This document shows positions 1 through 62,400 of a stretch of DNA of 64,000 bases, in pieces. Origin of the DNA: Echinarachnius parma (taxonomy: Eukaryota > Echinodermata > Echinoidea > Clypeasteroida > Echinarachniidae); NCBI GenBank assembly GCA_037951105.1, contig JBAMJV010003239.1, positions 1-64,000 of the forward strand, written 5' to 3'. Positions within the stretch are counted from its first letter, which is position 1; every line of letters begins with the position of its first letter. Below the pieces are notes generated by a model. That model was not told the DNA's origin, ran no database searches, and was given only the letters and a program-made list of their open reading frames with translations. The translations under genes were made by a program, and so were the position numbers.

Positions 1-159
1 GCTCCACAGTACGTCCCTATATACACCTGACCCCGGGGGGGGGGGGGGGGGGGGGGTCTGTCCTCATAGAAAGGGGGGTATCATGCGTAACCCAGGACTT
101 GCCAAAAGCCCCCTAAACGAGTATTTGCGTGGTGCAACAAATACACCCTAAGTATGATT

Positions 160-372
160 ATCGGTAATTTGATACCCTAAGCAAGTAATCAATTTTTTGT
201 AAACCCCTAAGCAAGTATTTTTGATACCCTAAGCAAGTAATCAATTTTTTGTAACCCCCTAAGCAAGATATAACTATTTTTGATACCCTAAGCAAGTAAT
301 CAATTTTTTGTAAACCCCTAAGCAAGTCATAACTATATTTGATACCCTAAGCAAGTAATCTTTTTTTGTAAA
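160..372. repeat. Minisatellite, CCCTAAGCAAG-based (left block)
   Basis: Alternating sub-units GATACCCTAAGCAAG and TAAACCCCTAAGCAAG are separated by T-rich spacers and repeat about seven times. The same units resume at 2560 on the far side of the LINE, so the LINE landed inside this array. Confidence 0.85.
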
Positions 373-430
373 CCCCTATTTTTTTATTTTTTTAATTTTT
401 TTATTTATTTTTTTATTGCTTTATATCATT

Positions 431-2550
431 TTCATATTTACCTCAAATATTCAGGCCAACCAGGATTACTTCACATTCAGCAACTATTTTAGATAATATT
501 TTTTATAATTACACAGAAAAGGTACAAGATAGTGGTATTATACTGACAGATGTCAGTGACCATTTAACCCCTTATATAACTATTACTTTTGATAATGATG
601 TAAATGAACATAATGAACAATTTATGAAGAGAGAAATTAATGATTGTAATATTCAAACATTTCAATCAAAGTTACATTCTGTTAATTGGAGTATTTTGGA
701 TTATATTAAAGATGTAAATCAAAAATACAGTAAGTTTATTGAAATATATTGTAAATTATATGATGAATGTTTCCCAAAAGTTCAGATAAGGAAAAAGAAA
801 CATCAGTTTGTTAAACCATGGCTTACTGTTGAAATTAAGAAAATGTGTAAACATAAATATACTTTATATAAAAAATATTTAAAAAATACTACTACATATC
901 GAGAACAGGTGTATAAATGTTATAGAAACACGGTAAATAGTGCAATACGAGATGCTAAACGTAAATATTATGATGCTAAATTTAAAGATGCTTTGAATAA
1001 TGCAAGAAAAACATGGAGTATAATAAATGAAGTATTGAATAAGAAAACACATAAGGACCCTATTAAGGAAATTGAGCATGAAGGAGATGTTGTAGTTGAT
1101 AAGGTTGAAATGTCTAATTTGTTTAATGATTTTTTTAGTACTATTGGAAAGAAAATTCATAATAATGTACATAACTCAGGAGATAGTACTCATTCTTTCA
1201 ATAGTTATTTGCATGGAAATTTTGTGGACTCTTTGTTTTTTAGCCCAATTTTAAAATCAGACATTATTAATATTGTTTTAAATTTAGATGTAAATAAATC
1301 AGCAGGGTCTGATGGAATTAGTCCTAAAGTTTTGAAATGTTCTATCGATGCAATTGTTTCTCCTTTGTGTAATATTTTTAATTGTTCCCTTGAGGAAGGT
1401 GTTTTATCTGTATTTTTGTTTGCTGATGATACTAGCCTATATGTGTCGGGTAAATATTTAGAACATTTAAATGATGTAATTAATGTAGAAATGGGTAAAG
1501 TGCAATCATGGTTTATAGCCAATAGACTCCAAATTAATTATAGTAAAACATGTTATATAATATTTAGACCACATAATTTAGATATTAATGAAGATTTGAT
1601 AAATATTCAATTAAATGGGGTTGTAATAAAGCAAGTAAAATGTACTAAATTTCTTGGTGTATTTATAGATGAAAAATTAAGTTGGAATGAGCATATTAGT
1701 TATATTTATTTAAAGATTTCAAGAATAGTTGGAGTATTACATAATTTGAAGTATATTTTGCCTTTGCGAATTTTAGTGAATATATACAATAGTATGGTTT
1801 TATCACATTTAAGTTATTGTAATATTGTTTGGGGCAATTGCTCATTTTATTTATTGAATAGACTGTTTTTATTACAGAAAAGGGCTGTTCGTGCGATTAC
1901 TAAATCACATTATTTAGCACATACACATAAGTTATTTTTGAAATTGAAAATATTAAATGTATATGACATAAATAAATTGCAGACTGCATGTTTTATGTAT
2001 TCATATTTTAAAAAGTTATTACCTCCCCTCTTTAATGGATATTTTAAATATAATAGGGATATTAATGTGTATAAAACAAGGAATTCACATAAAATATATA
2101 TTCCGTTTTGTAAATATAAATTTTCTAGATCAATTATTAGTTATCAAGGTGCGATAGTGTGGAATGATTTGCCTGATGAATTGAAACAGTGTCCAACTCT
2201 TGGTAATTTTAAAAGGAAGTTTAAAGGATTATTGAATAGTACATCATTACAATAGATTTATAATGTAAATGCCTGCTTGTTATGTGTTATATTCATTTTA
2301 ATAAGTCGTAGCTATAAAAGGGAAAGGCCTTGACAGGCCAATGGCCTTTGCCTTTCCCTCACATCCTCTACGGTTTATTATTATTTCTATTTTATCATGT
2401 CCTTGTATTGCTGTGTGTAGATGTTTTTAGATGTTTGTATATACTCTTGAATACTGTTTTTTCTATATTGTTTCCTTTGTATATATTTCTGATGTATATT
2501 TTGATGTATTTTAATGTGATGTGAAATAAACTGAACTTGAACTTGAAAAG
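431..2550 (+). mobile_element. Non-LTR retrotransposon (Jockey/CR1-like LINE), 5' truncated and internally deleted
   Basis: The insertion holds the end of an endonuclease domain, most of a reverse transcriptase ORF and a short 3' UTR. It ends in AATAAA and an ACTTGA repeat tail (2525-2547). Minisatellite sequence resumes directly after the tail. A short tandem repeat in place of poly-A is typical of several non-LTR clades. The 5' boundary is approximate. Confidence 0.75.
456..2255 (+). pseudogene. LINE ORF2 remnant: endonuclease C-terminus plus deleted reverse transcriptase
   Basis: The frame is open from about 456, before the first ATG at 624. The upstream part reads as the last endonuclease motifs (a TILDNIF-like stretch, then TDVSDHL with the conserved SDH). 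The reverse transcriptase fingers follow (NKSAGSDGISPKVLK). The sequence then jumps in frame from the segment ending EEGVLS to FLFADDTSLY, which carries the FADD catalytic box. The block normally between them is gone. Downstream, the thumb region (FLGVFIDEKLSW) and the LINE C-terminal region are intact to the stop. The in-frame deletion leaves a long ORF that cannot encode an active polymerase. Confidence 0.85.
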
Positions 2551-2551
2551 C

Positions 2552-2720
2552 AACTGATAACTATTTTTGATACCCTAAGCAAGTAAGCTGAGTTTTTGAG
2601 ACCCTAAACGAGTCATTCATCTTTTTGAGACCCGAGTAATTTATCAGCCTAAAAAAAGATACCCTTTTTCCTGATTTTGGGTGATTTTGAGACCCTATTC
2701 GAGATACTCGAGTATCTCGC
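2552..2720. repeat. Minisatellite, CCCTAAGCAAG-based (right block)
   Basis: This continues the array left of the LINE. Units degrade into GAGACCCTAAACGAG-like variants before the right terminal repeat of the enclosing element. Confidence 0.75.
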
Positions 2721-2821
2721 CTGATCGTAAAAAAAACACCCTAATTACTCGTTTTCTTGGTCACGCATGATACCCCCCTTTCAATGAGGACAGACCCCCC
2801 CCCCCCCCCCCTCCCCCCGGG

Positions 2822-7200: not shown

Positions 7201-10200
7201 TCCCTGATTGAGGCCAAAAGACTGACCAAAGACCGGAAGGCGTGGCAAGCCATCGTGAAGCAGAAGCCATCACACATCCCAGCGATGGTGTGGACGGCTT
7301 AAGTCAAGTAAGTCATAGAGGAAACTGACTATAGGCTACATAATTATTTTAAATGTTTGAAAATGAGCACAGAAAAATAGGCTTCTCCGGGAATCGAACC
7401 CGAGACCTTGTTATTATTATTATTATTATTTTTATTATTATCATCCTCTACAATATTCCCGTATAATTTTCTAAAAATCGTCCTTAGCGATTATGATATC
7501 GATCTCAAATTTGTCGCTTCTTTATGCCGACATCTCATCAGATTTACGTGTAATCCACTTCACTTTCTATTGCGCGATTTTTCTGCGCTCGTGAAATCAA
7601 TGGTCGAGCTGCGCATACGCAAATTATACAGTCAATAGTGACCACCCATGGGAGTCAAGAATAGTAGCCACTGTAGACAGGTGACCACTATATAGACAGG
7701 TTCCATAACAGTGTTTTTCTTTGCAGGGTATTACTTTTTCTGGCCACTATAGGCAGGTTGGCTGATATAGACAGGTGGCCACTAAGACAGGTTTGATATA
7801 ATTATGCGAAATGAAATGGCGATACCGATAGTATCGATACCTCTTTCCTAATAAATTGCCCTAGGGAAAGTAGTAAACAATTATATTTTCCTTAGGGCAA
7901 AATTACAATTATGTCATGCAAATAACATAGTAAATCTATTTTTGGTCATCTGACATACTCTCGACCAATCAATGAACACACCTTTTTAGAATCTAATACT
8001 TTGAATTTGATTTTCTTACTGCATGAATTCGTTGACAAGTGCTTCCACGTCCTCTTCTGTCGATGCCTGACGAAATCTTACTTTTATATTCTCGCTCAGC
8101 TGTCTGAAACCCATGTTCGCCGTCGTACTCGACATATTAACGATTCTATGGAATTGAGAATGGTTTATTTTAGTCATCAAATATTATTATCAATATATAA
8201 TGTACATTATATCGATGATTAAAACGGAATCATTCATTCATTCATCCATCCAATCTTTAATTAATTAATTAATTCGAACATTAATTAATTGATTTTTTCA
8301 TTCATTCATTCATTCATTCATTCATTCATTCATTCATTCATTAATTACTACATTAATGAATGAATTAATTATTAATTCATTCATTCATTCATTCACTCAT
8401 TATTTCTTCATTCATTCACCCATTTATTCATTCATTCATTCATTCATTCATTCTTTCACTCTGTATTTCTTCATTCATTTATTCATCACCATTCATTCAT
8501 TCTTTTATTCACTCACTGGAAAACTCAAATTCTTTCTTCATTATGAACCATAAAGATAATCGAAACATCACACATGACTGATTAAAGACTATCTGAAGTG
8601 GTACTGCATGTCCGAAACCCAATTGTCCAAAATGATAGACAAGAAACGTTCTGCTCTGTTGTTAGCGGCATTGTCGGGTAAGCTTCTTTTTCCTATTCAC
8701 AGGGGGAAACAAATAATTGGAAATATGCAGTTAGTTTCAGTTATTTAACAAAAAATGAATAAAGACAATTAACAATGCGCTTGCTAAATAAATAACATGT
8801 TACATAACACATTTTCCTGCCATAAAAATGCCTCATGAACCAAATGTAGCAACCGTCTATCATTTTGAACAATTGGGGTTCGGACAGTTCCACTTCAGTC
8901 ATGCGTGATGTTTTGATCATCTTCAATCTTCATGGCGTCATATGGAATACAATAATATGAGCTTTCCAGTGATGTGTAAGCTTCTGACAAACTTTTCTGA
9001 ATCATTTAGAAATTACCCGTCAAACAGAGACACCGATCTGTATAACGCTACGCGAATTGTTTTGTCTTACCGCCCATGTGATCGAACGAGAGGAATGAGC
9101 GCCCTAGACACTGCAAGCAGACCAGTGAAATTGACCGCCATGGATCCCACTGCTCGTTCGTGGGGATTTAGGATCGACTGGATGATAATTATAAAGGATT
9201 GGAGAAAAAAGAAAATAAATCTAGGCTAGCCTTTATATTTATATATAGTTTGTATATTTGTCAATAGTACATCATGTGACCAGAGGTGTTCAAAACCAGA
9301 TCAGCCAGAGCCACCTATACGATTCGACTAGAACAAAGCAGCGCCCTCTCCTTAATCCGATGCATTATACCTTGCGGTAACTGTACCAAATCCAGATCCA
9401 GATCCAGATCCAGATCCAGTGAAAGGATGACTAGTACTAGATCTTCCGTGTATACGTACTTTCTATTTCTAACCAGTAAAATTGACAGCCATTGACAATG
9501 TTGACTCAACTGCTCGTTCAAAGAGATGCAGTATATATCAGTTGGGCAATATTATAGATGATGGAAAAATGAGACACTATAAGACTATATCCTTTATAAT
9601 TATGCGTTATATAATAATATGGGAACTTGTATACAATGAAACCCAGTCAAACTGTTGTTTTGATATACTTGAAGAGATTAGGAGGAATACTCTCTAAAAG
9701 ATAGAGCATAATCGGGCAAGAAACAGACAATTATGGCACTTTGAAGATGTCCATTTATTCCTATGGGGAACTCAAATTGGCAACGCATTCTGATAAGTTT
9801 GTGGACTACTCTCAATATGTTTTGTACACAACTATTCAAATTGTTCCAGTTTTCTTCGAAGTCACACTTTTCCATTCCCCCAAATCACAGTATATTGTGT
9901 ATAAATGTATTCTACAAAACATGTGTTGAGCTCAAACGAAGAGTAAACATATATTTTGAGAAAATTGAACAAAATTGAAATGTTGTGTACAAAACATATG
10001 GGGAGTAGTCCACAACTTTGCCAGTGTGCGTTGCCAATTTGAGTCACTCGTATAAATAAATGGCTATTTTCAAAGAGCCATAGTTTTCTTATTTCTTGAC
10101 AGATTGTGCTCATATTTTCAGGAACTATTCATCATATTTCGTGTCTCATAGTGCATTCAACAATTTGTCCGGATTGCATTGTCCTTTAATAAATCACTTA

Positions 10201-14794: not shown

Positions 14795-17395
14795 GGAAGC
14801 GAGCGGAGCGAGTTTGGAAATTATAGCAATTTAACATCTGAAATTGCCATTTGTTTCAATATAATTGTATGGGTATGTTCGTGTTATATAATTGCGTTTT
14901 GAAGGGTAATATATAAACACCCGAGGTTGTATGCGAGCGAAGCGAGCGTGACAATTTTAGCAATTTAACATCGGAAAATTGCCATTTGTTTCAATATTAT
15001 TGTATGGGTATATTCGTTTATGACTTATGATATGGCGTAATTAAGGCGAGCGAAGCGAGCTTGAAAATTTTAGCAATTTAACATCGGAAATTGCCAATTG
15101 TTTTAATATTATTGTATGGGTATATTCGTGTTATGTTATTGCGTTTTGAAGGGTAATATATAAACACACGAGGTTGTAGAATATTATATATAGGGAATGC
15201 GAGCGAAGCGAGCTGGAAAATTTGAGCAATTTAACATCTGAAATTGCCATTTGTTTAAATATTATTGTATGGGTATATTCGTGTTATGATATTTCGTTTT
15301 GAAGGGAGCATATAAACACACGAGGTTGTAGAATATTATATATATAAGAATGCGAGCGAAGCGAGCTTGACAATTTTAGCAATTTAACATCTGAAATTGC
15401 CATTTGTTTCAATATTATTATATGGGTTATTCGTGTTATGATATTTCGTTTTGAAGGGAGTATATAAACACCCGAGGTTGTAGAATAATATATATAAGAA
15501 TGCGAGCGCAGCGAGCTTGAAAATTTTAGCAATTTAACATCGGAAAATTGCCATTTGTTTCAATATTATTGTATGAGTATATTCGTTTATGACTTATGAT
15601 ATGGCGTAATTAAGGCGAGCGAAGCGAGCTTGAAAATTTTAGCAATTTAACATCGGAAATTGCCATTTGTTTCAATATTATTGTAAGGGAATTCGTGTTA
15701 TGATATTGCGTTTTGAAGGGTAATATATAAACACCCGAGGTTGTAGAATATTATATATATACGTATGCGAGCGCAGCGACCTTGAACATTTTAGCAATTT
15801 AACATCGGAAAATTGCCATTTGTTTCAATATTATTGTATGGGTATATTCGTTTGTGACTTATGATATGGCGTAATTAAGGCGAGCGAAGCGAGCTTGAAA
15901 ATTTTACCAATTTAACATCGGAAATTGCCAATTGTTTTAATATTATCGAATGGGCATATTCGTGTTATGTTATTGCGATTTGAAGGTAATATATAAACAC
16001 CGAGGTGTAGAATTTATATATACGGAATGCGAGCGAAGCGAGCTTGAAAATTTTAGCAATTTACATCTGAATTGCCATTTGTATCAATATTATTGTATGG
16101 GTATATTCGTGTTATGATATTTCGTTTTGAGGGAGCATATAAACACCCGAGGTTGTAGAATATTATATATAGAAGACTAGAATGCGAGCGAAGCGAGCTT
16201 GACAATTTTAGCAATTTAAAGGGGTAGTTTAGTTTTGGTAGAGAGGGCGCTGCACATCACAATTTTTTGTGAGGTAATGAAAAACTGAATGTCGAATTTG
16301 AGAGAACATGCAATTTTAATGGCAGAATAAACTTTATTTGGTCAAAATCGACCCAGAAACGGCTGAAATATCAATAAATATATCTGATCTTATAATTATT
16401 TGGGGCCCAAATAATTAGATGATTTTAGAAAAAAATTAAAATGGCTTGCACTTTTTCAAAATTTTCAAAGCGTTTTTTAAATAGCTGTTGATGATCTCGC
16501 TATTTAATCATTATATCATAAAACATCACATGCCATAATTTTGTATGCAAAATGGTTGAAACCAATGCCTTTTAAAAAAGCGCCCTCTTGTGTTTGAATG
16601 GCCTCTTTTTGAATGATAACAGGCTTTTTACTTAGTCGTTTGTAATTTTGTATACCTTTCGAGCATGGTGGAGTAATAACTATTAGTTTATAATGTGCAG
16701 GTTTAGCTACTTAAGTTCAGCCTTACCAAAACTAAACTACCCCTTTAACATCTGAAATTGCCATTTGTTTCAATATTGTTATATGGGTATATTCGTGTTA
16801 TGATATTTCGTTTGAAGGGAGTATATAAACACCCGCGGTTGTAGAATAATATATATAAGAATGCGAGCGAAGCGAGCTTGAACATTTAGCAATTTAACAT
16901 CGGAAATTGCCAATTGTTTTAATATTATTGTATGGGTATATTCGTGTTATGTTATTGCGTTTTGAAGGGTAATATATAAACACACGAGGTTGTAGAATAT
17001 TATATATACGGAATGCGAGCGAAGCGAGCTGGAAAATTTGAGCAATTTAACATCTGAAATTGCCATTTGTTGTCATATTATTGTATGGGTATATTCGTGT
17101 TATGATATTTCGTTTTGAAGGGAGCATATAAACACACGAGGTTGTAGAATATTATATAATAAGAATGCGAGCGAAGCGAGCTTGACAATTTTAGCAATTT
17201 AACATCTGAAATTGCCATTTGTTTCAATATTATTATATGGGTTATTCGTGTTATGATATTTCGTTTTGAAGGAGTATATAAACACCCGAGGTTGTAGAAT
17301 AATACATGTATAATATAAGAATGCGAGCGAGCTTGAAAATTTTAGCAATTTAACATCGAAAATTGCCATTTGTATCAATATTATCTCGTGGAAAA
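14795..17395. repeat. Satellite array, GCGAGCGAAGCGAGC monomers (~110 or ~150 bp)
   Basis: About fifteen monomers each start GCGAGCGAAGCGAGC, followed by AGCAATTTAACATC and GAAATTGCCA. The starts are 110-113 or 149-156 bases apart. The longer form adds a segment containing ATAAACACCCGAGGTTGTAG. The array is interrupted at 16220 by a MITE. Confidence 0.92.
16220..16744. mobile_element. MITE, AGGGGTAGTTTAG family, copy 1 (TTAA duplication)
   Basis: Perfect ends AGGGGTAGTTTAGTTTTGGTA (inverse at 16724-16744) are flanked by TTAA on both sides. Neighbouring monomers give the empty site GCAATTTAACATC. TTAA duplication suggests a piggyBac-type mobiliser. A TA duplication with one extra A in the end repeat fits equally well. 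Confidence 0.88.
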
Positions 17396-17893
17396 TTTTG
17401 AAGCCGAGACCAAGAAATTTCAACATTTTCGAGCCCGAGACCGGGTTTCTTCGCAAATTTTTGAGGCCGAGACGAGGTTAATAATGAGGGTCGAGACCGC
17501 TTGTAAGTGGTCTCGAGACCACTTGTAAGTGGTCTTGAGACCACTTGTAAGTGGTCTTGAGACCGGCTAAAATTTGAAAAGGGGGGGTTCAAACCCCCCA
17601 AAACAGCCATTTTGGGGCCAAAGGGGGGGGGGGTTTCAACCCCCCCCCCCCCAAACCCCCCCCCCCCCCCCGGGTACGCCTATGTGTTTATCCTACCTGC
17701 CCTGAAGCCCGGACAGCCGTAGCTAACCAGTTTGAGCAGAGATGGACCACCCCCACGCCATCGGGGCCCTGGATGGCAAACACATTGCTATCAATAAGCC
17801 ACTGGCAGTCTGTACTACATTTACAAAGGCTTTTTTCTTACACCACTCCTGGCTTTGGTGGATGCTTGGTGGAAAATGACACATGTCAGATGC

Positions 17894-28592: not shown

Positions 28593-29217
28593 CTTTGTGC
28601 GATTGAAGTTGTTTTATTTGTTGAATTATATCATTCAGCTTTTACAATCCCCCCGATACCCATATAGAAAAAAATTGGGGGGCCCCATCTGGTTAGAACT
28701 GGGCTCACATGGGCCCGTGTACATTTGCACCAGGGTTTTGACATGGGTCCCAAAAATGGGCGGCGGGGATGTGTTCGCTAACATTTCTCGAAGCCGAGAC
28801 AGACCTAATACAAACATTTCTGAGTTGTGTTCTCTGTGGCCGAGACCACAGGTTAAAAGACCAGTTGAAAATTGTAAAGGGGGGGGGGGGTTAAACCCCC
28901 TCCCCCCGGGTACGCCTATGCGCCTCCCCAAAATCACTTGGATCACGCTACGCCATTGTAGACAAACTTGTTGTGTAATGTAGTTACATAAATTCCCGGC
29001 ATAAATCAGGCGTTAGAAACGGTGGTTTAGCGAGGGAACTCGACCTCCCCCCCCCCACCCAATAGGATTTTGTTTGGTTAGCCATTAGTTTTGATTTCGC
29101 CGTTTTCAAAAGCTTACGGCGCCCTGCGCTTTCTTGCTCGCATATTGAAGCACCCCCTCCCCCTCCCCCCCCCCCCCCCCCCCCCCCCACAAAATTCCAG
29201 ACTATAGGCAACTATAA

Positions 29218-29721
29218 AGGGGTAGTTCAGTTTTGGTAGAGAGGGCGCTGCACAACACAATTTTTTCGTGAGGTAATGAAAAACTGAGCATCGAATTTGA
29301 AAGAACATGCAATTGTAATGGCAGAATAAACTTTATTTGGTCAAAATCGGTTCAGAAATGGCTGAAATATCAATACTATCAGATCGTAAAATAAATACGA
29401 TGATTTTTTGAAAAAATTTAAAAAATGCTTACACTTTTTGAAAAATTTTCAAAAGCGGTTTTTTAAATAGTTGATGATCTCTGTCATTATATCAACAAAA
29501 CATCACATGCATAATTTTGTAATGGTTGAAACCAATGCCTTATTAGAGTGCGCCCTCTTGTGTTTTAATGGCGCTTTTTTTAATGATAACAGGCTTTTTA
29601 TTTAATCGTTTGTATTTTTGTATACCTTTCGAGCATGGTGGGGTTATAAATATTAGTTTGTAATGTTACTGCGCAGGTTTTGGTTACTGAAGTTCAGCCT
29701 TACCAAAACTGTACTACCCCT
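29218..29721. mobile_element. MITE, AGGGGTAGTTYAG family, copy 2
   Basis: Its ends match copy 1 at 16220 and the interior is colinear (GAGAGGGCGCTGCAC, CGAGCATGGTGG). It is flanked by ATAA on the left and TTAA on the right. Confidence 0.85.
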
Positions 29722-29882
29722 TTAATTTCATAGCATTCAGCTTTTACAACCCCCCCCCCCCCCCCCCCCATACCCAGATAGTACACAAATTTTGTGGAAC
29801 TTTACATAAATTCCCCGCATAAATCAGGTGTTAGAAACAATGGTTTAGGGAGGGAACTCGACCCCCCCCCCCCCTCCCCCCG

Positions 29883-29980
29883 CTGGCGCCCTCCATAGGA
29901 TTTCACTTTTGGTTAGCCATTAGTTTTGCGTTTTAGTTTTGAATGGCTAACCAAAAATGCAATCCTATGGAGGGCGCCAG
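29883..29980. repeat. Hairpin, ~39-bp arms
   Basis: CTGGCGCCCTCCATAGGATT then TTTTGGTTAGCCATT is mirrored around 29922-29941 with one short mismatched patch. Only one arm appears in the other array units. Confidence 0.8.
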
Positions 29981-31204
29981 GGGAGAATTTAACGCCCCCC
30001 CAAAAAAAAAAAAGAAAAGGGGGGATTTAACCTCCCACCCCCTGGGTACGCCTATGCCCCTCCCCAAAATCACGCTACGCCATTGTACACAAACTTGTTG
30101 TGTAATGTAGTTACATAAATTCCCCGCATAAATCAGGTGTTAGAAACAATGGTTTAGCGAGGGAACTCGCCCCCCCCCCCCCAAAGAAAAGGGGGGATTT
30201 AACCCCCAACCCCCCCCCCCCCCCGGGTACGCCTATGCCCCTCCCCAAAATCACGCTACGCCATTGTACACAAACTTGTTGTGTAGTTACATAAATCAGG
30301 TGTTAGAAACAATGGTTTAGCGAGGGAACTCGCCCCCGCCCCCCCCCCCCCCCCCCCGCTGGCGTCCCCATAGGATTTCATTCTTGGTTAGCCATTAGTT
30401 ATTCTATTGGGGGGGGGGGGGGAATTTAACTCCCCCCCCCAAAAAAAAAAAAGAAAAGGGGGGATTTAACCCCCAACTCCCTCCCCCTGGGTACGCCTAT
30501 GCCCCTCCCCAAAATCACGCTACACCATTGTACACAAACTTGTGTAATGTAGATACATAAATTCCCAGCATAAATCAGGTTAGAAACAATGGTTTTGCGA
30601 GGGAACTCGCCCCCCCCCCCCCCCCCCCCCCTGGCGCCCCCATAGGATTTCATTTTTGGTTAGTCATTAGATTTGATTTTGCCGTTTTCTAAAGCTATAA
30701 TCCAAAAGCTTACAGCGGCCCGCGCATTCTTGCTCGCATATTGGACGCCCCCCCCCCCCCTTCACAAAATTCCAGACTAGGCAACTAGTTATTTTTTTGT
30801 TTGTTTCAATTCGATGTGAGAATATTTTCACATTTGAAATTTTTAGTTATCAAAAACAAATTTGACTTTTTGAAAAAATCCCAGTTATAGTGCAATTTCT
30901 TACGTCATTATGTCTTACATCTCTGCTCGGTAATGGATATATTTTTTCCCGAAAGGTGTATACCCTTTAGAAATTATCAGAACTTTCGGGACCCCCGCCC
31001 CCCCCCCCCCCCCCACAATGTCTATGCTTTTCTTACACAAAAGGAGAAATCAAGAAGGAATTCAACCAAACATGTGTTCTTTGCATGCAGTCATCTCCAA
31101 TTACATGAACACACACAGTCACAGACAAGCTGGTACACTTTCAAACACACATACTGCTCGTGGTACATGATGCAGTGGGGTTACTTTAGAATTTGGGCAG
31201 AATA

Positions 31205-31339: not shown

Positions 31340-31850
31340 AGGGATAGTTGAGTATTGGTCAAACTTAACTTTAGTAACCAAAACCTGCACCATTATGGTA
31401 CAAAACAATAGATAACTTCACCATGCTCGAAAAGTATACACAATTACAAATGACTAAGTAAAACCCCTGTTATCATTCAAAAAGAGCCGTTACAACTCAA
31501 GGGGGCTCTCTAAAAAAAATAATTGGTTTTAGCCATTTTTCATACAAAATTGTGCATTTTTGTTAAAATAATGATTCAATAGAGATATCATCAACAACTT
31601 TTTAAAAACCTATTCAGATTTGTTTGCATTTTAATTTTTTTTTCTAAAAAGTCAAAATATCCCCTGGCACAGAATTTTTGAATAAAAATATGTTTATGGA
31701 TATTTCAGCCGTTTCTGAACCGATTTTGTTCAAATAAAGTTTATTCTGTCATTAAAGTTGTATGTCCTTTCAAATTTGACAGTCAGTTTTTCATTATCTC
31801 ACAAAAAATATTTTGTGAAGTGCCCCCCTTTACCAACACTCAAACTATGC
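31340..31850. mobile_element. MITE, AGGG(G)TAGTT family, diverged copy
   Basis: It starts AGGGATAGTTGAGTATTGGT after TTAA, with internal words shared with the other copies in the opposite orientation (CCATGCTCGAAAAGTATAC). It ends ACCAACACTCAAACTAT. The right terminus is degraded. Confidence 0.7.
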
Positions 31851-41285: not shown

Positions 41286-41749
41286 CCCAAGAATTAGCCG
41301 ACTCGACCCGATCCGACTGGTTTAAATCAGGCTAGAGTTGGGCCCGGTCGGTCGGAGCAGATTTATCGTGTTGAATCGGCCCCAACTGGCATCCGACTGT
41401 CTCTCGACTGGCAAAATGTGTGTCGCGAGGCACTGAAAACTGAGCCGATCGGAATGACAACCAGTCGAGTCGGCTCTGTCTGCGCCGGGCATAAGTCATT
41501 GATTTAAAGCTGAAAATAACAACTCGATCTCTTACGATTACTAGTAGTCCACTCTGTATAATTTATGATTTTAAAAACGACCCAAGTCCATCAAACAAAA
41601 TGCCCCCCCCCCCCCCACAAATAACGTGAATCATAATTAATGTACATTAAAACTAGTGTTGCCTTATACCATAATGGTCAAATATAATGTTATTGAAGAA
41701 ATGACCTGTCCCCTGTCCCCTGTCATGGACTTGGGTCGTTTTTATATTC

Positions 41750-41885
41750 AGATACTCAATTACAAACGACTAATAAAAAACCCTGTTATCATTTAAAAAG
41801 AGGCGTTACAACTCAAGAGGGCGCTCTCTAAAAACTCATTGGTTTTAACAATTTTTCGTACATGTGATGTTTTTAAAAATAATGT
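41750..41885. repeat. Partial MITE copy (AGGG(G)TAGTT family)
   Basis: The internal segment ACAAACGACTAA ... GAGGGCGCTCTCTAAA abuts the next full copy. Confidence 0.6.
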
Positions 41886-41889
41886 TTAA

Positions 41890-42975
41890 AGGGATAATTG
41901 AGTTCTGGTAAGGAGAGTAGGCCCCGGGGGGGGGGGGGGGGGGGGGCACTCATGTCAAAGACGGGTATGTGCCGCTTAAAAGAACCCCTTTTTCACACCC
42001 GATCGCAACTCTAAAGATACCCGATTTTCAAAAATTGCTGCTCCATAACTATAGACCCCCGGAATGACTTGGCTAGGTAGTTAGTAGCGCCAAGTCCATT
42101 ATTCTTCTTCTAGTTCGGCTCCATAGACCCCCGGAATGACTTGGCTATGTATTTGACTAGCGCCAAGTCCATTATTCTCTTCTAGTTTGGCTCCTTGGAC
42201 CACCATTTGAGCCTTTTTGAGGGTTTCCGTAGGTCTTTGGTAGCTCCAAGTCTATGTATTTTGTAGTTTTAGTCTGCTCCTTAGACCCCTTAACTCCCGT
42301 TTCAGGGTTTTTGTAGCTCCAAAGACCCTATATTCTGTGCTTGTAGTCAGCTCTTCAGACCTCCATTTCAGAGTTCTGTGAGGCACACCCCCGTCAAAAA
42401 ATAATTCGAGTGCCCCCCCCCCCCCCCCCCCCCCCGGGGAGTAGGCTACAATTTTGGTGAAACTGAATTTTAGTAACCAAAACCTGCATCATTACATTAC
42501 AAACTATAATAGTTATAACTAGAAAGGAACACAACATTACAAAATGACGTAGTAAAGATCATGTTATTATTCAAAAAGAGCCGTTAAAACGTAAGAGGGC
42601 GCTCTCTAAACACTCATCGGTTTCAACCCTTTTGAATAAATTATTGTGCATGTGATGCTTTGTTGAAATCGTGATTAGATAGAGAAATAACCAACAACTA
42701 TTTAAATACCTATTTTGTCACTTTTTGAAAAGAGGAAGCATTTTTTTGAATTTTTAACGGCTGGTTCAAAATTCTCTAATAAACCTGGGCCCCAGCTTTA
42801 TTACAAATTGTTATATTTATGGATATTTCAGCCGTCTCTGAACCGATTTTGATCAAACAAAGATGATTTTATTATTTAAATACTATGCTCTTTTAAATTT
42901 TACACTCAGTTTTTCATTACCTCACCAAAAAAATAAGTAGTCTAGCGCCCTCTCTACCAAAACTCAACTATCCAT
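41890..42975. mobile_element. MITE, AGGG(G)TAGTT family, hosting a G-tract element
   Basis: From AGGGATAATTGAGTTCTGGT to ACCAAAACTCAACTATCC, flanked by TTAA on both sides. A 516-bp G-tract-ended element lies inside it. Confidence 0.82.
41923..42438. mobile_element. G-tract TIR element, copy 2, with exact 8-bp target duplication
   Basis: Ends are CCC + about 21 G + CACTC, and the perfect inverse GAGTG + C run + GGG. GAGTAGGC occurs immediately outside both ends (41915-41922, 42439-42446). The interior has two ~65-bp tandem units (ATAGACCCCCGGAATGACTT) and further decayed ones. No ORF. Confidence 0.88.
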
Positions 42976-44005
42976 TTAAATAGAGATATCATCAACAACT
43001 ATTTAAAAACCTATTTTGATTTTTTTCAAGGAAGTTTGTCTTTTTCTAAACAGTCAAGATGTCCCCCGGCAGGGTAGACTTATACATAATCATATAGGCT
43101 ATAGCCTACAATGTATTTTGAAATCAAATGTTACAACTATGAGAGCATTCGAAAGGGAATGATTCTCATTTCACGTTTTATTCAATGAACTTTCAAATGG
43201 AATTAAAACCAACCAAGTTGGTGTCAAGGGGCATTTCGGGAAGAACCAATACTCAAGTGTACCTTACTTTAAATGCAGAAATATCAGTTGAAACGTTTAA
43301 ATGCATGCCGCCGACATTTGGGCCTAAATCACCTCCAGTTTGGCCCGTCTACGCTGGCCACATACACGCTCGTTCACATGCATTTTCCATAGGTTTTGCA
43401 CGCCACAACGAGCATGCGAATTAATTGAATCTGTGCATGATCAAAGATCGTGTTATTAATGCTCAAACAGTCAATTTCAAAGCAGTTTTTGTCCAAATAT
43501 TTACATTATTGGTCAAACGTAACTTTAGTAATCAAAACCGGCACCATTACGGTACAAAGTAATAGTTATAACTTCACCATGCTCGAAAAGTATACACAAT
43601 TACAAACGACTAAGTAAAACCCCAGTGGTTATCATTAAAAAAAGAGCCGTTACAACTCAAGAGGGCGCTATTAAAAACATTATTTGGTTTTAGCCTTTTT
43701 TCATACACAATAATTGTGCATTTAATGTTTGTTAAAATAATGATTCAATAGAGATATCATCAACGACTTTTAAAAAACCTATTCTGATTTTTTCAAAGTA
43801 GTCTTTCGAGCATTTTTTGAAATTGTTACAGTATATCGCCCGGTGATTGCCGGTGAAGAACATTTTTAATACAAATATATTTATGGATATTTCAGCCGTT
43901 TCTAAACCGATTTTGATCAAATAAAGTTTATTCTGTCATTAAAATTGTATGTTCTTTCGAATTAGACAGTCAGTTTTTCATTATCTCACAAAAAAATATC
44001 GGGGG
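42976..44005. other. Fragments of the same MITE family, no genes
   Basis: Two partial copies (about 42976-43080 and 43497-44000) share GAGATATCATCAACAAC and CCATGCTCGAAAAGTATAC with the family. Between them is unique AT-rich sequence. Confidence 0.6.
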
Positions 44006-53439: not shown

Positions 53440-56400
53440 GTAAGTTGATATCAAAAATCAAAATCCATCGTCGCGCTCGCTGCTACGAATTGTTAGTGTT
53501 ACTAGCCGAAAGCATCGGAATCCCACGCCCTTAGCTCTGGGGATCCACCGGCTGGAGATTCCGCTAGCGGTTCAGCATACAGCGACGCGATCGCGAGGCC
53601 GAGCCCGCGCCCGAGGCGCGGCGAGGGCCCGGCGCGGCCTTGGCCCATGATCGGCGCGGCTTGACCACATCTACAAAGTAAATGGTTCACTCAGGTGCGC
53701 TTGACCACACATAGGTACAATAGCGTGGCAAAACTATACTTTAGTAGGCTTAGAGAATTTTGGTCGCTAGATCAACCTCTTCCGCCCACTGCACTATCCA
53801 ACAAATTTTTTTGTGGCAGCGCGCATCATCATGTCAGTGCGCATCATGTCAGTGACATTCCCATGGCCATGCAAAACGGGGATAATCGATCACGTATGGG
53901 CAATACAACACACAATTTTGGGGTCGGGAAGAGGCTTCTTTTTTGGAAGGGTTTACAAGAAAGTCGATTTGGAGAAAAATTTGCAAATTCTTTATGACAT
54001 TTACAACAGATGGATTGTTTATGAGTTTACATTGTATGCAGCTGCTCATATAATTTCCACTTTTATTTGATGCAGCCAATGTTTGTTTTTTGCGGTGAGT
54101 ATTGGTATCCGGTAATAGGGCACAGCTCGGTAAACAATATCGAAAGTAAATTACTTTGAGATTTCTTGCACACACAATAAAACGATACATGATCTCCGCC
54201 AACGAAGTGGCCGGAGGCATTATGTTTTCGGGTTGTCCGTCCGTCCGTCCGTACGTACGTCCCGTTTTCGTTCTCGCGATATCTCAAGAACCGGTTGACG
54301 GATCAATTTCAAACTTAGTATGAGTGTACATGTTGGGGTGACAATGATCTGAGTAGATTTTAGGGGTCATGAGGTCAAAGGTCAAGGTCACAGGACTCAA
54401 TATATATGCAAAAATGCCTCGTTCTTGCGATATCTCAAGAACAGGTTGACGGATCAAATTTAAACTTGGTAATAGTGTAGATATTGGGGTGGCAATGATC
54501 TGATTAGATTTTGGGGTTCATGAGGTCAAAGGTCAAGGTCACAGGACTTGATGTATGCGCAAAAATGCCTCGTTCTTGCGATATCTCAAGAACCGGTTGA
54601 CGGATCAATTTCAAACTTGGTATGAGTGTACATATCGGGGTGCCACTGATCTGATTAGATTTAGGGGGTCATGAGGTCAAAGGTCAAGGTCACAGGACTC
54701 AATATGTATGCGAAAATGGCTTGTATTGGCAAAATTTCAAGAACTGAATGTCAGATTTCAATCAAACTCGGTACCTGAATGTATCATAAAGAGTCAACGT
54801 AGCCGTAAAATGTTGGGGTCATGAGGTTGAGGTCAAGGTCACGGGACTCATTATACATGCAAAAAAGCTTGTAATGCCAAAATCTCAAGAACTAAATGTC
54901 AGATTTCAATCAAACTTGGTACCTGAATGTTTTTTAGGGAGCCATCAAAGATTGGGGTCATATGGTCAAGGTCACAGGACTCAAAATATTAAAAAAAATT
55001 AAATCAGTGCATGTTAATAAGGGCTTGATATTAAAATCGCGTGGTAGCGGAGGCATAATTTTCGATTGCGCGCAATCGAAGATCCATCTAGTTTGTACAT
55101 GATTTGATTTTGACCTGTCATGTCAATCATCAACACGTATGATCAATTGTGTTTTTGTAGTTATTAAAGCATGCAGGGGAGCCAATCGACTAGGCAGAGC
55201 TTGTAAGATGAAAGGTCTGTTTAAAACTTAATTACAGGAGTATAATCAATTCAAGGTGTGTGTAAACTGAGGATTAGAGAGTGAGCGGCTAGTACTATGC
55301 CAGTGGTTTGCTGCATAACTTTTAATACAAAGTTAAAGGTGGTTTGGATTTGTAAATCAGATTCGTGTTGCCATCTTGCAAGCAACTAGCACACAGAACT
55401 TATTATTCTTACTAGACTAGAATAGATCTAGTTAAACTATGAAACTAGACATTGTCTGAATGTCTGTGTACATGTGAATTATATGTGGAACAGTGCAACT
55501 GAATGATAGGGAAAGTTGTAATTGTGTGTGGATCATGATCTCTCTTTCCTAATATCAAACCTATGATTACAGATGAAGCATGACATAAAAGAAAATAAGA
55601 TTTTTTCAGTTTGTCAATGTCGGGTTGCAAATCTGCTTGCCCGATCGGGCCACCAAATATGACTTTTATACATTTTGCTGCCCCCAAGTGCAATTTCACT
55701 GGCCCCGGGCCAGCGGGCCAGTGCGAGTGGCCTTGATGCAGGTTTACAACAATTTTGTTGTTTATTCTGCTGTTTATATGCATCAGGATATGATCACAGA
55801 GACATTTAAACAAAAATCTGTTTTTAAGGCAAAATTAACTTTTATGAATTATAGTATACTGCAAGTTTACCAATTAGTTGACAATGACTTTTGTAATGAT
55901 TTCTTGGCCTTTTTCTATAGAGACATTCCCACAGCATGACAAAAACAAACTTACGGATGCTCTAAAAAATATACGCAATTGCATGGAGCATCCATTCTTT
56001 TGGTCAAGCCATGGCCTTGGGCTTGTCTTGGAAGAGAATGCAGATTTCTTTAAAACTCAAAGAATCTTAAATATATCTTTGACTCTAGTGCAGTAGTGCT
56101 ACTTAATTCTTTGCAAGTCTTGGGTCTTGTTAACTTAAAAGGGTTAAGGTAAGTAAAGGATAGATAAATTAGATTTGGTCATGTTTATTCTTACTACGAT
56201 CTTTTAATAAGCAGATCATAATGTTCTCTACAAATTTTTGTTTCTTTTCTGTACAGCTGAGCGGATGAAGACTGTTGAGTTTGGCTTCAAAGATAATGAC
56301 ATCAATATGATCGATAAGGTGGCAGAAACTGTCAGAGAACTGGTAAGATTCTATTTGCTGAGTGCAGATGGTCTTTGATTCTAACTTTTTTTAAAGTAAG

Positions 56401-59400
56401 CCAAGGAAATGTAAAATTGTATAATTTTCATAAATATGTAAGAAGTCAGGATATTTTATATTTTACTCTCCCTCCTGATTCCATGCTTAAATGCTGAATA
56501 TTCTGTCCTTTGTATACTAATCTATCTATTAATTTAATTGCATGAATATTACTTGAGATGAGAAAACTATAAGTAGTATAAAACATGAAAAATATCAACA
56601 AGGAAAACAAAATCAAGGATATTGGTTCATGTTTTCGATTTTTAATCAGTACCTCATGTATCTTAAGTGTAGGCCTCAGAGTAGGCAGCATGTCAGACAG
56701 AAATCCTTTCTTTAAACAGAGATCCGATCACATATCCCGGCTCTCCTGCAAAATAAAGAATAGATTAATAAAAAATAACTTGGAGAGTAGGAAAGAGATG
56801 TGTGTCTTTGAGTGTATGAAATTATTTATTTATATTTAATTAGTTATTTGGAAAATCTTCAATAATTAATCAAGTAATTAGTTCTTCCCGACCAGATGAA
56901 CAGAGACATCTAAAGATTGATTAGTGTATGAAATTGATATTTCTCCAGCACCTGATTCCTGAGACACCAGTGCCAGATCAACAGAGTGATGATAGCTGTA
57001 GAATATTTGATTAGGAATTATCTCATGTTTTTTCTTATATTACAGGATGGGCAGCGTGTGAAACTCCACACCCTCCTGGAGACGGAGACAATCAACTCCA
57101 GCATCCTGAGACATCAACTCCAGTTCTTCCCTGACCAGATCAAGAGGGAGATCATGGCGGCTGTGGAATCAGCCAGGCAGTCCAATGCTGAGGAACTAAA
57201 GAGTCTACAGGTCAGAGAAAAATAGTATTTTACTAATGAATTGAAAGACCTTCTCTCCTCCCAATTGCAGTAAGCATCATTTCAAGGGCTTTAGTAGGCC
57301 CTTTATTGTTGCTACTTTTGTTATTAATATACATATATTTGTGTTTTGTTTTAAAATTGATCTCTAGTTAGTCTTTAAAAAGAGTAATTTTCATATATAT
57401 ATAGGTAATTTACTGTTAGCAACTGGGGCACATATCTGCATGCATGAAGCCCTGTTAAAGTTAGGTGACTATTAGATATTTGTGGAACTTGGGGCAACTT
57501 GTGGATTATTTTATTGTCAGGTAGTGTTAGCAGGCTTGCATGAAAATGGGCCTTGATCAAGAGGGGATGTGGTATTTCAAAACAATCTTAACAAACAACA
57601 GCAAAAGAAACTAAAGAGTCTTATATCTTTACTTTTCAACTTGTCCATTGAAATATTGTTCAACCTTAAATATTTCAGTGAGACCGTATCCATTGGGCTT
57701 TGATAATTTTATGAAAAATAATTTGAATTACACACACCAACAATATAACAATTTGACTATCATTTACATTGTTCTGTTTGTAAGGAGGACATGGGTTAAC
57801 AATATGAATGGTAATTGTACTGACCCATTTCAAATTCTTTGAACTTGCAGGATAAATTGGAGCAGCTGAATGAAGATATTGAGGAATTTGAAGAGAGGCA
57901 TAAGAAGCTTAGCAAGGAAAACGCAATACTTGCGTAAGTGTATTTTTTTATTGATTTTGTTGTTGCAATTTGACTTTGACTTTTTTTACGCACTTATCAA
58001 AGCAATTAGAATATAGACAAGGCATACGTATTGTTATTCAAAAGAGCAAAAATAAAAGTTGGTTTGTACTTGTATTATCAATGACCTAAATCATTTTGTA
58101 GGACTTTTCTTTTATTTACAGCCACTGTATATTTCCAAGTATTGAAAAGACATGGATTGAACAAGTTGATATTTGTCTATTTTCTCTTTTTATTAGATGT
58201 TAACTTTTATTTCCATATGCTAAAGAATTAAAAGAAACTAAATATTTGGATGTAATTATTAATTATTTTTATGCCTCCGCAACGAAGTAGCCGGAGGCAT
58301 TATGTTTTCGGGTTGTCCGTCCATCCGTCCGTACGTACGTACGTACGTCCCGTTCTCGTGATCGCGTTATCTCAAGAACCGATCGACGGATTCTCACCAA
58401 ACCTGGTTCATGTATGTATCTTGGGGTGCCAATGATCTGATTAGATTTTGGGGTCATGAAGTCAAAGGTCAAAGGTCACAGAGCTCATTATATATGCATA
58501 AATAGCTCGTGATCGCGTTATCTCAAGAACGGATTGACGGATTCTGACCAAACTTGGTACATGTATGTATCTTGGGGGGCCGATGATCTGATTAGATTTT
58601 GGGGTCATGAGGTCAAAGGTCAAAGGTCACAGAGCTCATTATATATGCAAAAATAGCTCGTGATCGCGTTATCTCAAGAACGGATTGACGGATTCTGACC
58701 AAACTTGGTACATGTATGTATCTTGGGGGGCCGATGATCTGATTAGATTTTGGGGTCATGAGGTCAAAGGTCAAGGTCACTTATAGCTCATAATTGTGAT
58801 ATGTCAAGATCTAAATGACAGAGTACCATCAAAATTGAGTTGACAGAATTAATTCAGTGTACATGTTGATTTGGGCTTGATATAAATCGCGTAATGGCGG
58901 AGGCATCATTTTGGACTGCGCGCAGTCGAAGATCCATCTAGTTCAATATGCCACTTTGTTAATAGTGGAATACGATCCTGAAATATTGATCTTTTTTTGG
59001 GGGGGGGGGGGGCTGTAGGAAAGTACACAATTATGGGCAATGGACATCAATAAATTGATATATGATGTTTGTGTTTCTTCAATTGTACTTTTTGTCTGAA
59101 AATGATGATCATAGTCTTGCAAAACAATGTAAATAAAGATTTAATGTAAATAATTATTTGTGAATCATAATTTATTTTTTCCAGTCCAGAGCGTGACATG
59201 GTGCGGGCACAGCATGAAGAAGTCATCTCACAACTCAACCAACGTCTAGCAGACAAGGCAGGGTTAGTCAGATAATGAAGATAATTATAATAATAAATAA
59301 TAACATGTTTATATTTATTATAATACAATATAACCTGTATTAAAATGCTACTATTATTACCACGGTCATAGATAACATTTGCCTGCCCACACACATTGGC

Positions 59401-62400
59401 CTGTATTCACAAAGGAGGTTTGTACAAACCATAGTTCAAACCATGGTTTACATCTATGGAATGCCAATTGTAAACTGATGGAGAGAGAATGTGTACCATC
59501 AACATTGTTAACAAGTAAGGAATTTACATTCTCTCTCCATCAGTTTACAATTGGCATTCCATAGATGTAAACCATGGTTTAAATCATGGTTTGTACAAAC
59601 CCCTTTGTAAATGTGTGCTGGCTGGGTAAGCCATACATAACTTAATCTCTGACATCTGGTATATGAGGAGTGAGATTATTAAGCATTCACCAGCATCAAA
59701 TTGTCATTGTATCATTTGATGCATCATTTGAAAAGAGCTACACAAATATGAAGTACATATTTTATTAACATAATAGCCTACAAGGTATTCCAGGTATTGA
59801 TTTTGTAATTTTATGATTGAAGTATAACTTTGTCTTTCTGTGGATATAGACTTGAAACTTATTGTTCTTGTAAATATGACTTTGGTCCACTGGTTACTTG
59901 ATGTAAAAGATGTTCATTCACAATATTTTCTAATAAGTTAGTTTTGTTTCCATAGGCAATAAACTTTGCAATGTTGTATTGTATTGAATGAGAAGGTTAC
60001 CAATTCCGTTAACATATCCTTATTTCCATTGCCTTTATTTAGGAAGCAAATCATGTTGAATGAGACAAGAGATCGTCTTCGAGAGACAAATCAAAAGGTG
60101 AGTGTTCTTTTAATATGGCTAGGTAAATTTTGTAATAAATGATGACATAAATGGTACCCTGGGGTACCAAACGAAAATCTGCCATTTTGTTTAATTATTT
60201 ATTTATTTTTTAGGCTGTACCAGGGTATAGCGTGCAAACAAGCGCGCGCTGCACTACATGCACAACGCAATACGGTTGTACTTCGAGTGGACACAAGATG
60301 GCGCTACACAACGCGGGATACCGGGGTACCACGGTACCTCGGGGTACTGCGTGTGTCATCAAATACCAAATGTGAATAGGGACATTATTTTGATGGGAAT
60401 GATGTATCCTGTTAGAGGGAACTGGACAATTCATGTCTGATTAATGACCTTGTAACAAGATTATGAAATTAAAGAAATTTAAGTTTGAAAGCTTGTAATT
60501 ATTTTTAACTACCATGGCAACAGCTCCAATGCTCCATGCTGATTGGCTGTTGACCTAATAATAATAAAGTTTTATGAAACGGGGCACTGATCCTTTCCTA
60601 TTTACTTTATTTAGTCTGATAACAATACAATACAAATTAAAAAATCTTAGAGATTTTTATGTCACTGAATGAACAACTTCTAATCTCTCCCCTTTTGTCC
60701 TTCATTTGATCAGATTGTGGACCTCGAAGCCAACATAGTGATCTTGAAGGAGGATATGATTCAGGAGAGAGCTGATGCTAGGCAGGAGAAGAAGCGACTC
60801 AAGCAGGCTGTGGTATGTAGCACACATTGTTGTCTGTAGTAGGGCCTTGATTCTCTAGATAAATCAAAAGGGCACAAATGAGAACATAACCTATATTGTG
60901 TCTAGTAGGGCCTAGTCTTTCCGGCCCACAGCTTTGACATTTTCAGCGGCAGTTTTCTTCCCCTTGATTTTATTCTAGATAAATCAAAAGGAATATGTAT
61001 ACAGTGAGGAGGAAATAGATATACTATCTATACTATCTATTTGACAAACATATAATGATCATATTGTACATTGAAATAGCATAGTTGTTGGAACTGACAA
61101 TGTAAACCAAAACATACCCTTTGTCTTGAATAAGACATCTAATTTGAAGGCATGGGCTGCAAAGTATACTTCTATATGGAGTGCAATAGAAAATGTATTA
61201 AGAAGACATAGAATATTCAGTTCAGAAATGACATCATATTTAATGTTCTTTTTTGTGTTTTCTGGTTGTCTTGTCCGTTCGTCCGTCTATTCGTACGTCC
61301 CGTTCTCGTTATCGCGATATCTCAAGAACCGGTTGACAGATTTCCACCAAACTTAGTACATGTATGTATCCTGAGGAGCCAATGAAATTATTATATTTTG
61401 GGGTCATGAGGTCAAAGGTCAAAGATCACAGAGCTCATTGTATGCCCAAAATAGCTCTTAATTGTGATATCTCAAGATTTGGTGGAAAGATTGCCATAAT
61501 ACTTGGCACATGTATGTATCTTGAGTAGCCAATGAAATGATTATATTTTGGGGTCATGAAGTCAAAGGTCAAAGATCACAGAGCTCATTGTATGCCCAAA
61601 ATAGCTCTTAATCGTGATATCTCAAGATTTGGTGGAAAGATTGCCATATTACTTGGCACATGTATGTATCTTGAGTAGCCAATGAACTGATTAGATTTAA
61701 AGGGTCGCTAGGTCGAAGGTCAAAGGTGACTGCTTATATAAATTGCTCAATGGCGGAGGCATCTATTTCGACTATGTGCAATCAAAGATCCATCTAGTTA
61801 TTCTTGTTTTTTGTAGCATGATACAGCTAAGAAGACAAAGAAGCAGAAGGAAGCCAACATAGCCCAGAAGAAAGAAATGGACAGACTACAGGAGGAGCTG
61901 ACTGGAAAAAACATAGAGCTGAATGATATAATGAAGGTGAGAATTAAGTATTTTAATAATCAACCTAAATTTTTTCCACTTTATTTCTTCCATTCACTTT
62001 ATGAACACTTGAAAAATGGACACTTACACACACACATACATATACAAACTCACATTTATTTGGGTGAATGTGAAATACTTGACAAATTTTTGTGTAAATT
62101 AATTGTTGGTATTTTGGGCAATGTGATAGGCAGTCAGGAAAAAACTTGTCAGTGTTCTATTTAGCTGAGTTGGTAGATTAATAAAAGAAATCATGTTGCT
62201 ATATTTTATATGCTTTATTCTCAACATAATGTTTTTGTGTATAATGTTTGATTATAGGTAATAAGGCGATTTGACATCAACTGTGCAAGGGCTGAAGCAC
62301 AAGAGAGGGAGTTCCAGGAAGAGCTTAACATATTTTGCTCTATTTTTAATGCTTTATTGCTCTATGTTATTTTGTCAATGATGTTATCAGGTGATCAGGC

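Follow-up and report, generated by a model that had tools for sequence, protein, structure and literature searches.

Short DNA transposons with CCC and G-run tips and 8-bp target site duplications in Echinarachnius parma

Described systems and the two elements of the window

Duplications of 8-9 bp are made by P, Merlin and MULE transposons, and hAT elements are marked by an 8-bp target site duplication (TSD) of the nTnnnnAn type together with CA..TG tips. Among echinoderm DNA transposons, the TU foldback elements of sea urchins make 8-bp duplications, as do the elements described here, and differ from them in their long repeats of 15-bp tandem units. In extracts of the literature, 8-bp duplications are given for hAT (usually) and Zisupton (PMC12730594), and Zisupton-like elements with inverted repeats are described for which no duplication was found (PMC9297572). 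Repbase-style unclassified non-autonomous transposons with 8-bp TSDs, which are sorted by TSD length and by their first 11 terminal bases, are alike in their 8-bp duplication, their inverted ends and the absence of a visible coding sequence; what sets the elements described here apart is the tip, CCC plus a G run whose length varies. Pineapple Ac-mMITE (PMC8449440) and guayule SaTar (PMC5907723) are also MITEs tied to simple repeats. According to extracts of these two papers, the plant microsatellite is the target and lies outside the element, whereas the G run described here lies inside the duplication and is part of the element. The Caenorhabditis genome, whose poly-G/poly-C tracts are kept by DOG-1 (PMC2211496, extract), is likewise rich in long G/C tracts; a word search of the text of that paper found no "transpos". 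Among the matches listed in the open-access literature (titles and abstract openings, Repbase not being covered), none was a transposon with homopolymer tips. The group that we describe belongs to a known kind, MITEs with 8-bp duplications, and is a variant of it.

We analyzed a stretch of 64,000 nucleotides of Echinarachnius parma (hereafter, the window), which is the first 64 kb of contig 3238 in a 1.2-Gb assembly. The element marked by the original prediction, E2 (41923-42438, plus strand), is a non-autonomous DNA transposon of 516 bp, recognized from the sequence and from its genome copies and assigned below to family B. It starts with CCC-G21-CACTC and finishes with GAGTG-C23-GGG. The left tip (41923-41946, plus strand) consists of CCC (41923-41925) and G21 (41926-41946), and the right tip (42413-42438, minus strand) reads inwards as CCC and G23, with C23 at 42413-42435 and GGG at 42436-42438. 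A CACTC motif adjoins each tract on its inner side, at 41947-41951 on the plus strand and at 42408-42412 on the minus strand (GAGTG on the plus strand). As the original prediction held, an exact 8-bp duplication, GAGTAGGC, abuts both sides (41915-41922 and 42439-42446). Such in-register agreement arose by chance in 17 of 200,000 random draws of 8-mer pairs from the window, and CCCG10 did not occur in 100 shuffles of the window. Taken alone, E2 is equally compatible with a 6-bp duplication, AGTAGG, and a CCCC tip; other copies decide for 8 bp, because in them the duplication does not always start with G and end with C.

No open frame of at least 120 aa overlaps E2. It contains 2.1 copies of a 72-bp tandem unit (42051-42201, plus strand), and one such unit is absent from four of the six other aligned B copies (L001, L002, L007, and L009). 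We found 39 further near-full-length copies of E2 at 93-96% identity (40 scored including E2; 2,355 first-look candidates), and the sequences of 20 of the 39 were fetched for the end tables. E2 sits at the beginning of one copy of an older interspersed repeat, which begins near AAAGGGGTAGTTTAGTTTTGGTAAGG and flanks it on both sides (41752-41890 and 42447-42700); since it lies between two pieces of this repeat, E2 is probably the later arrival. Further copies of the older repeat are at 16482-16731, 29489-29713, 31355-31599, and 43502-43768. Left of E2, there is also a small element-like inverted repeat with an inner C14 (41566-41750; arms 41566-41591 and 41725-41750, 92%).

The second locus, E1 (32-2821, plus strand), is a family-A element split by an insertion. 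Its left tip is CCCC-G22, while its right tract, C17-T-C6-GGG, is interrupted, so that the perfectly inverted ends ascribed to this locus proved imperfect. Inside the tracts lie the terminal inverted repeats, TCTGTCCTCATAGAAAGGGGGGTATCATGCGTAACCCAG at 57-95 (plus strand) and its counterpart at 2756-2794 (minus strand). The inverted repeat thus extends beyond the tract, with 36 of 39 aligned bp identical and 70 bp at 90%. E1 has no 8-bp duplication, and its flanking 8-mers, CACCTGAC and CAGGCTGA, do not match. The insertion (381-2545, plus strand) was delimited with an uninterrupted A copy in L026, which aligns to E1 50-380 and then directly to 2546-2814. Judged by eye, it looks like a broken non-LTR retrotransposon; its 619-aa frame (396-2252) matched no Pfam family at E 0.001.

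E1 and E2 had been called unrelated. They do belong to different families, yet they are part of one group, with a common tip and the same duplication length in other copies. Homology between their inner ends is weak: the score of the best pair, E1R/E2L, was matched by 17 of 2,000 shuffles and by 43 of 2,000 random window pieces, and the other three E1/E2 pairs are weaker.

A genome-wide group with 8-bp duplications

CCCG12 occurs at 7,792 sites in the 1.2-Gb genome (3,923 + 3,869), compared to 871 (420 + 451) for a reversed control, and not all of the 7,792 are of the E1/E2 kind. From 100 CCCG12 places listed, we sampled 12 convergent pairs (at most about 2.1 kb), eight other regions, and 20 single sites. 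Elements of the group were recognized in five of the eight single regions and at 12 of the 20 further single sites; several of the unrecognized sites resemble other repeats with inner G runs. Together with the fetched copies, these counts confirm that a transposon family with CCC and G-run tips is spread throughout the genome.

By eye, we delimited seven families with a CCC-G(n) tip, and [C/T]ACTC comes next in six of them; the universality of the G run at the tip is partly a matter of selection, as our searches asked for CCCG. Ends in the group take the form CCCG(n)-[C/T]ACTC or CCCG(n)-TCTGTCCTC. After CCC-G(n), family A (E1) continues with TCTGTCCTCAT(A/T)GAAAGGGGGGTATCATGCGTGACC, and family B (E2) with CACTCATGTATAATGTAAGACGGGTATGTGCCGC and, at the opposite end, CACTCGAATTATTTTTTGACGG. 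The corresponding sequences are TACTCACGTATATTGGG / TACTCAGATTATAG in family C, CCACTCAACTATATTGCTGTACACACGCGCGACC in D, TCACTCTCATACAAAAGTGCTACC in E, CACTCTTTTTGTG in F, and TACTCGAATTATC in G. Family F includes one 119-bp element with the duplication ACTAGCCT, and family E ends number 385 + 436 genome-wide at up to two mismatches (control, 0). In viral contigs, neither of the two patterns of exact terminal sequence had a match. A published rule places elements in one superfamily when their TSDs are equally long and their terminal 11 bp differ at no more than one position (PMC4455052, extract). Under this rule as extracted, ends of at least G6 would place families A and B in one superfamily.

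Duplications of 8 bp accompany these tips across the genome. Where left and right tips of the same locus were paired at up to 10 kb, the 8-mers next to them differ by no more than one base in 13 of 17 cases, versus three of 962 between-locus pairs, two of which are exact and join L010 with L011, a duplicated locus. A joint table holds 36 elements, 35 with both ends (the right end of L057 was not found). On a strict reading, with CCC and 8 bp, 24 of the 35 have an exact duplication and three more have one mismatch; when tips of 2-4 bases are allowed and the best setting out of 36 is taken, 33 of the 35 have at most one. Seven further elements, from families A, B, D, E, F, and G, all reach this level with the same tip latitude (L036, eighth of that set, was already in the table and was not recounted). 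Pooled, 40 of 42 two-ended elements have an 8-bp duplication with at most one mismatch and a tip varying by a base; among the 40, L050 and L054 are uninformative because of their position in poly-C, and L010/L011 and L043/L046 are single insertions seen twice. Thus, the search for CCCG pairs with their flanking 8-mers, which the original prediction had proposed as a check, yielded a consistent duplication.

The failures are L045 and L055 in the table, and E1 and L016 outside it; the right end of L016 has no GGG and, by eye, its flanks do not match. Loci with no recognized second end (e.g., L015, L027, L029, L032, L033, L072, and L073) stand outside the duplication tables, and some tips differ from CCC by a base, as in L026, L040, and L043. 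Altogether, the elements have what defines MITEs, i.e., non-autonomous TIR transposons: terminal inverted repeats, short and non-coding sequence in many similar copies (25 A elements span 340-1,837 bp), and a TSD of fixed length, 8 bp, with misses at E1, L016, L045, and L055. The duplications and the structure of the copies show transposition. Beyond the tip-plus-duplication structure itself, that structure suggests cut-and-paste movement, in which a putative transposase acting in trans would cut at the CCC tip and join the element to its target with an 8-base stagger.

Base composition of the target was considered for 32 duplications, of which 17 have G at position 1 and 15 have C at position 8. 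A candidate target motif, GNYRYRNC, outscored every one of 5,000 random sets; since it had been derived largely from the same data, we claim no motif. A palindrome test was negative, with 1,047 of 5,000 random sets reaching the score. The E2-family copies L050 and L054, and perhaps L072, are inserted in poly-C, which is only suggestive of a preference for G/C tracts as targets.

Length of the terminal G run

The G run at the tip comes in two states, a short class, whose mode is at 6 in family A and at 7 in family B, and a long class of 10-33. In family B, we used 85 pure left-end runs among 100 listed of 729 (15 are interrupted, and the search pattern limits the tract to 33). One is at 6, nine are at G7, one is at 8, none is at 9, and 74 are at 10-27, with a median of 16; nine fall at 10-12 (three at 10 and three at 11). 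In family A, 24 of 86 ends are at 5-8, none is at 9-11, and 62 are at 12 or more; these 86 come from 100 listed of 1,074, with 14 interrupted ends dropped and 27 known by coordinates only, where interruptions would be unseen. For 25 A elements, both ends were listed (interrupted tracts kept), and 12 are long/long, 10 mixed, and three short/short. The two ends vary close to independence.

Homopolymer lengths are error-prone, and copies of one insertion do differ in tract length. L010 and L011, one duplicated locus, have tracts of 13/16 and 12/15 and are identical in 993 of 998 columns; the five differences are all gap columns (three in the right flank), without a substitution. L043 and L046 share their flanks and have G23 and G19, with 673 of 686 columns identical. 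Differences confined to indels are what assembly or sequencing artefacts would give, and the original prediction allowed for such an origin of the tracts. However, in dozens of copies the run is bound to one strand, to one place, and to the duplication boundary, the reversed control is rarer by a factor of 9, and the exact lengths 6 and 7 recur; we regard an artefact as very improbable.

According to the original prediction, the long G/C homopolymer is itself the terminus that a transposase recognizes, perhaps as a G-quadruplex. Consistent with this, all seven families have a G run at the tip (in part because CCCG was searched for), and 51 of the 85 pure B ends have at least 15 G, in principle enough for a one-strand quadruplex. 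Short ends speak against it. They form a class apart (24 of 86 in A at 5-8, 11 of 85 pure B ends at 6-8) and occur in copies with exact duplications, namely L021 (17/6), L035 (16/7), L058 (18/6), and L070 (G7 left). Ends with 6-8 G are also found, with a shifted tip, in the duplication-flanked L036, L051, L026, and L071. It follows that insertion does not depend on a long run, unless the runs shrank later. Tract length in duplication-flanked copies ranges between 6 and 41, yet the boundary departs from CCC by no more than a base, and a conserved, ordinary complex sequence lies behind the tract. Recognition of the homopolymer thus fits poorly and is, in our judgment, quite unlikely. A functional end would rather be an ordinary terminal repeat, probably CCCGGGGGG(G), then [C/T]ACTC(A) or TCTGTCCTCAT, then family-specific sequence, and 6 or 7 G appear to be enough at the tip.

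Which of the two states came first can be read in two directions. A long run of about 16-20 may be ancestral and transmitted, and the short class could be contractions of it. Most ends are in the long state: 62 of 86 A ends have at least 12 G, and 74 of 85 pure B ends have at least 10. One interrupted tract, G13-15, T, G5, A, G2, recurs at three of the listed A ends (C249:23478, C249:26758, and C371:71109); it is possible that a long tract was passed on by transposition there, or that these are one duplicated locus. Large contractions, however, should not halt at sharp, family-specific lengths (mode 6 in A; nine of 11 short ends at 7 in B), and we hold this order of events to be doubtful. Because of these sharp lengths, we read the short state as the inherited terminal sequence, and because of the wide spread of the long class, we read the long state as expansion, an ordering that we infer.

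Growth of the G run is tip-biased. Family A ends contain a second, internal G6 run, which reaches 10 or more in 31 of 1,598 cases genome-wide, while 62 of 86 A tips are at 12 or more; the tip and internal counts come from different, overlapping sets, and the A tip set demands an internal G6 exactly. The internal run is at 5-8 in 98 of the first 100 listed of the 1,598, and 29 of the 31 expanded ones are at 10-17. This near-static internal run counts against slippage alone. Single-base slippage is further disfavored by the lack of intermediates at 9-11 among the listed A tips, although B has three at 10 and three at 11. Two candidates could account for growth at the tip next to a static internal run: a CCC/GGG foldback at the tip, or repair during integration. 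We favor the foldback because long CCCG runs are present at other repeats, too.

The candidate of repair during integration can be extended to an expansion of the G run in transposition, one step per end, with repair synthesis of the 8-base gap entering a CCC/GGG foldback. Each joining to a new site could then add some 6-25 Gs at the tip, independently at the two ends. In favor of this are the two-state lengths (the listed A ends skip 9-11), the independence of the two A ends, and the internal G6 run of A ends that barely grows and whose rare expansions, 29 of 31 at 10-17, lack the length gap of the tips. Changes of 1-4 bases between copies of one insertion indicate that slippage (or assembly error) acts, long CCCG runs are also found away from these tips, e.g., at the GGGTACGCCTATG ends described below, and B ends at 10-12 do exist (nine of 85). 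Overall, we consider growth at transposition unlikely. If true, it would mean that a transposon family seeds its genome with new quadruplex-prone tracts, and that its enzyme, possibly of an undescribed superfamily, tolerates a spacer of variable length between cut site and recognition sequence.

The account that we favor, and believe to be probably correct as a whole, is that of MITEs mobilized in trans, with an ordinary terminal repeat and a G run grown later as a by-product. E1 and E2 would be members of a large group of TIR DNA transposons that are short and non-autonomous. The G run at their tips would, in most copies, have been lengthened later, end by end, to about 10-33 bases, presumably by replication or repair slippage. 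The homopolymer would then be a hypermutable by-product of a run bounded by CCC/GGG, rather than a recognition signal.

These observations draw attention to one group of echinoderm transposons. They show that the homopolymer at the end of a transposon can come in two states, independently at the two ends and with a bias to the tip, atop an ordinary terminal repeat. Since this genome has thousands of such ends, and since the internal G run of family A supplies a control within the elements themselves, it could be used to test how long G runs originate, which concerns replication and repair no less than transposon biology.

Transposase search and other features of the window

The original prediction proposed looking for a longer copy that encodes a transposase, and none was found in the regions and loci sampled. 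In regions around 20 CCCG12 sites, each at most 10 kb long, the open frames within group elements gave no recognized transposase; the longest element there (L028, 956-5514) has a duplication and no evident transposase. Among the first 100 listed A ends, 36 of 37 pairs are less than 2 kb apart, and one is 7,982 bp apart (C170:109131-117112). This convergent pair is the best lead to an autonomous copy.

The genome does have matches to known transposase families: KDZ (32), P (30), Merlin/IS1595 (77), MULE (24), and hAT (34). We fetched eight transposase loci (L061/62 taken as one, and L063-L069), and in this sample, which is too small for the exclusion of any of the five families, the fetched stretches have no CCCG6-or-longer tips, unlike the E1/E2 group. 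They comprise one intact hAT locus (L066, 596 aa), whose 4 kb contain no G/C tract of at least 6, three P loci (L063-L065, Pfam-confirmed), two Merlin/IS1595 loci (L068 and L069), one KDZ/Zisupton locus (L061/L062), which spans 15 kb and accounts for two of the 32 matches, and one weak MULE locus (L067), with no G/C tract of 6 or more. Pfam confirmed the transposase frames tested at L063-L068. A search for an inverted repeat with an exact 8-bp duplication gave nothing credible at seven of the eight loci (L061/62, L063-L066, L068, and L069) and is uninformative on their real ends. An assignment to hAT by its hallmarks was rejected: the tips are CCC..GGG, and T at position 2 and A at position 7 are found in eight and nine, respectively, of 32 duplications. 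As side observations, KDZ (Kyakuja-Dileera-Zisupton) matches with identical scores are present on seven contigs (C987, C1292, C1601, C2190, C3376, C6016, and C7305), suggesting recent spread or duplicated contigs, and some 25-30 Merlin/IS1595-type fragments have near-equal scores (C1327, C3854, C4543, C53, C1502, and others), some pairs being 6.5-6.9 kb apart.

The window contains 35 G/C tracts of at least 12, four of which belong to the E1/E2 group, and poly-G/C runs of at least 8 make up 704 of its 64,000 bases. If the window is assumed to be representative, 35 tracts per 64 kb extrapolate to about 656,000 genome-wide, and the 7,792 CCCG12 sites to about 1% of these. The suggestion that the group explains part of the abundance of homopolymers in this genome therefore holds in direction, but the contribution is minor.

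Two CCCG tracts in the window, at 17662-17674 and 30215-30227 (minus strand), were examined as ends of the E1/E2 type and rejected, as they run into GGGTACGCCTATG instead. Repeats with C(n)GGGTACGCCTATG (CATAGGCGTACCCG(n) on the other strand) are at 17656-17674, 28879-28920, and 30210-30227, and in L034 near 8989. Their G/C run lies about 13 bases inside the end and is short and interrupted at 28879; the end itself looks hAT-type, as we presume. They are a second, different repeat group with CCCG runs. Several copies of another repeat, with a context like GAGGGAACTCG-C(10-22)-...GGCGCCCCCATAGGATTT and a run length that varies by copy, lie at 29047-30640. At 54268-54921, 58355-58780, and 61311-61698, there are tandem arrays whose unit is about 150 bp long and which contain phrases such as TTTTGGGGTCATGAGGTCAAAGGTCAA. 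Finally, a bZIP-like frame at 38241-39419 matches Pfam bZIP_1 below the cut-off; its top match, at 50% identity, is without a name, and its best named relatives are in sea urchins, at 44-48% identity.
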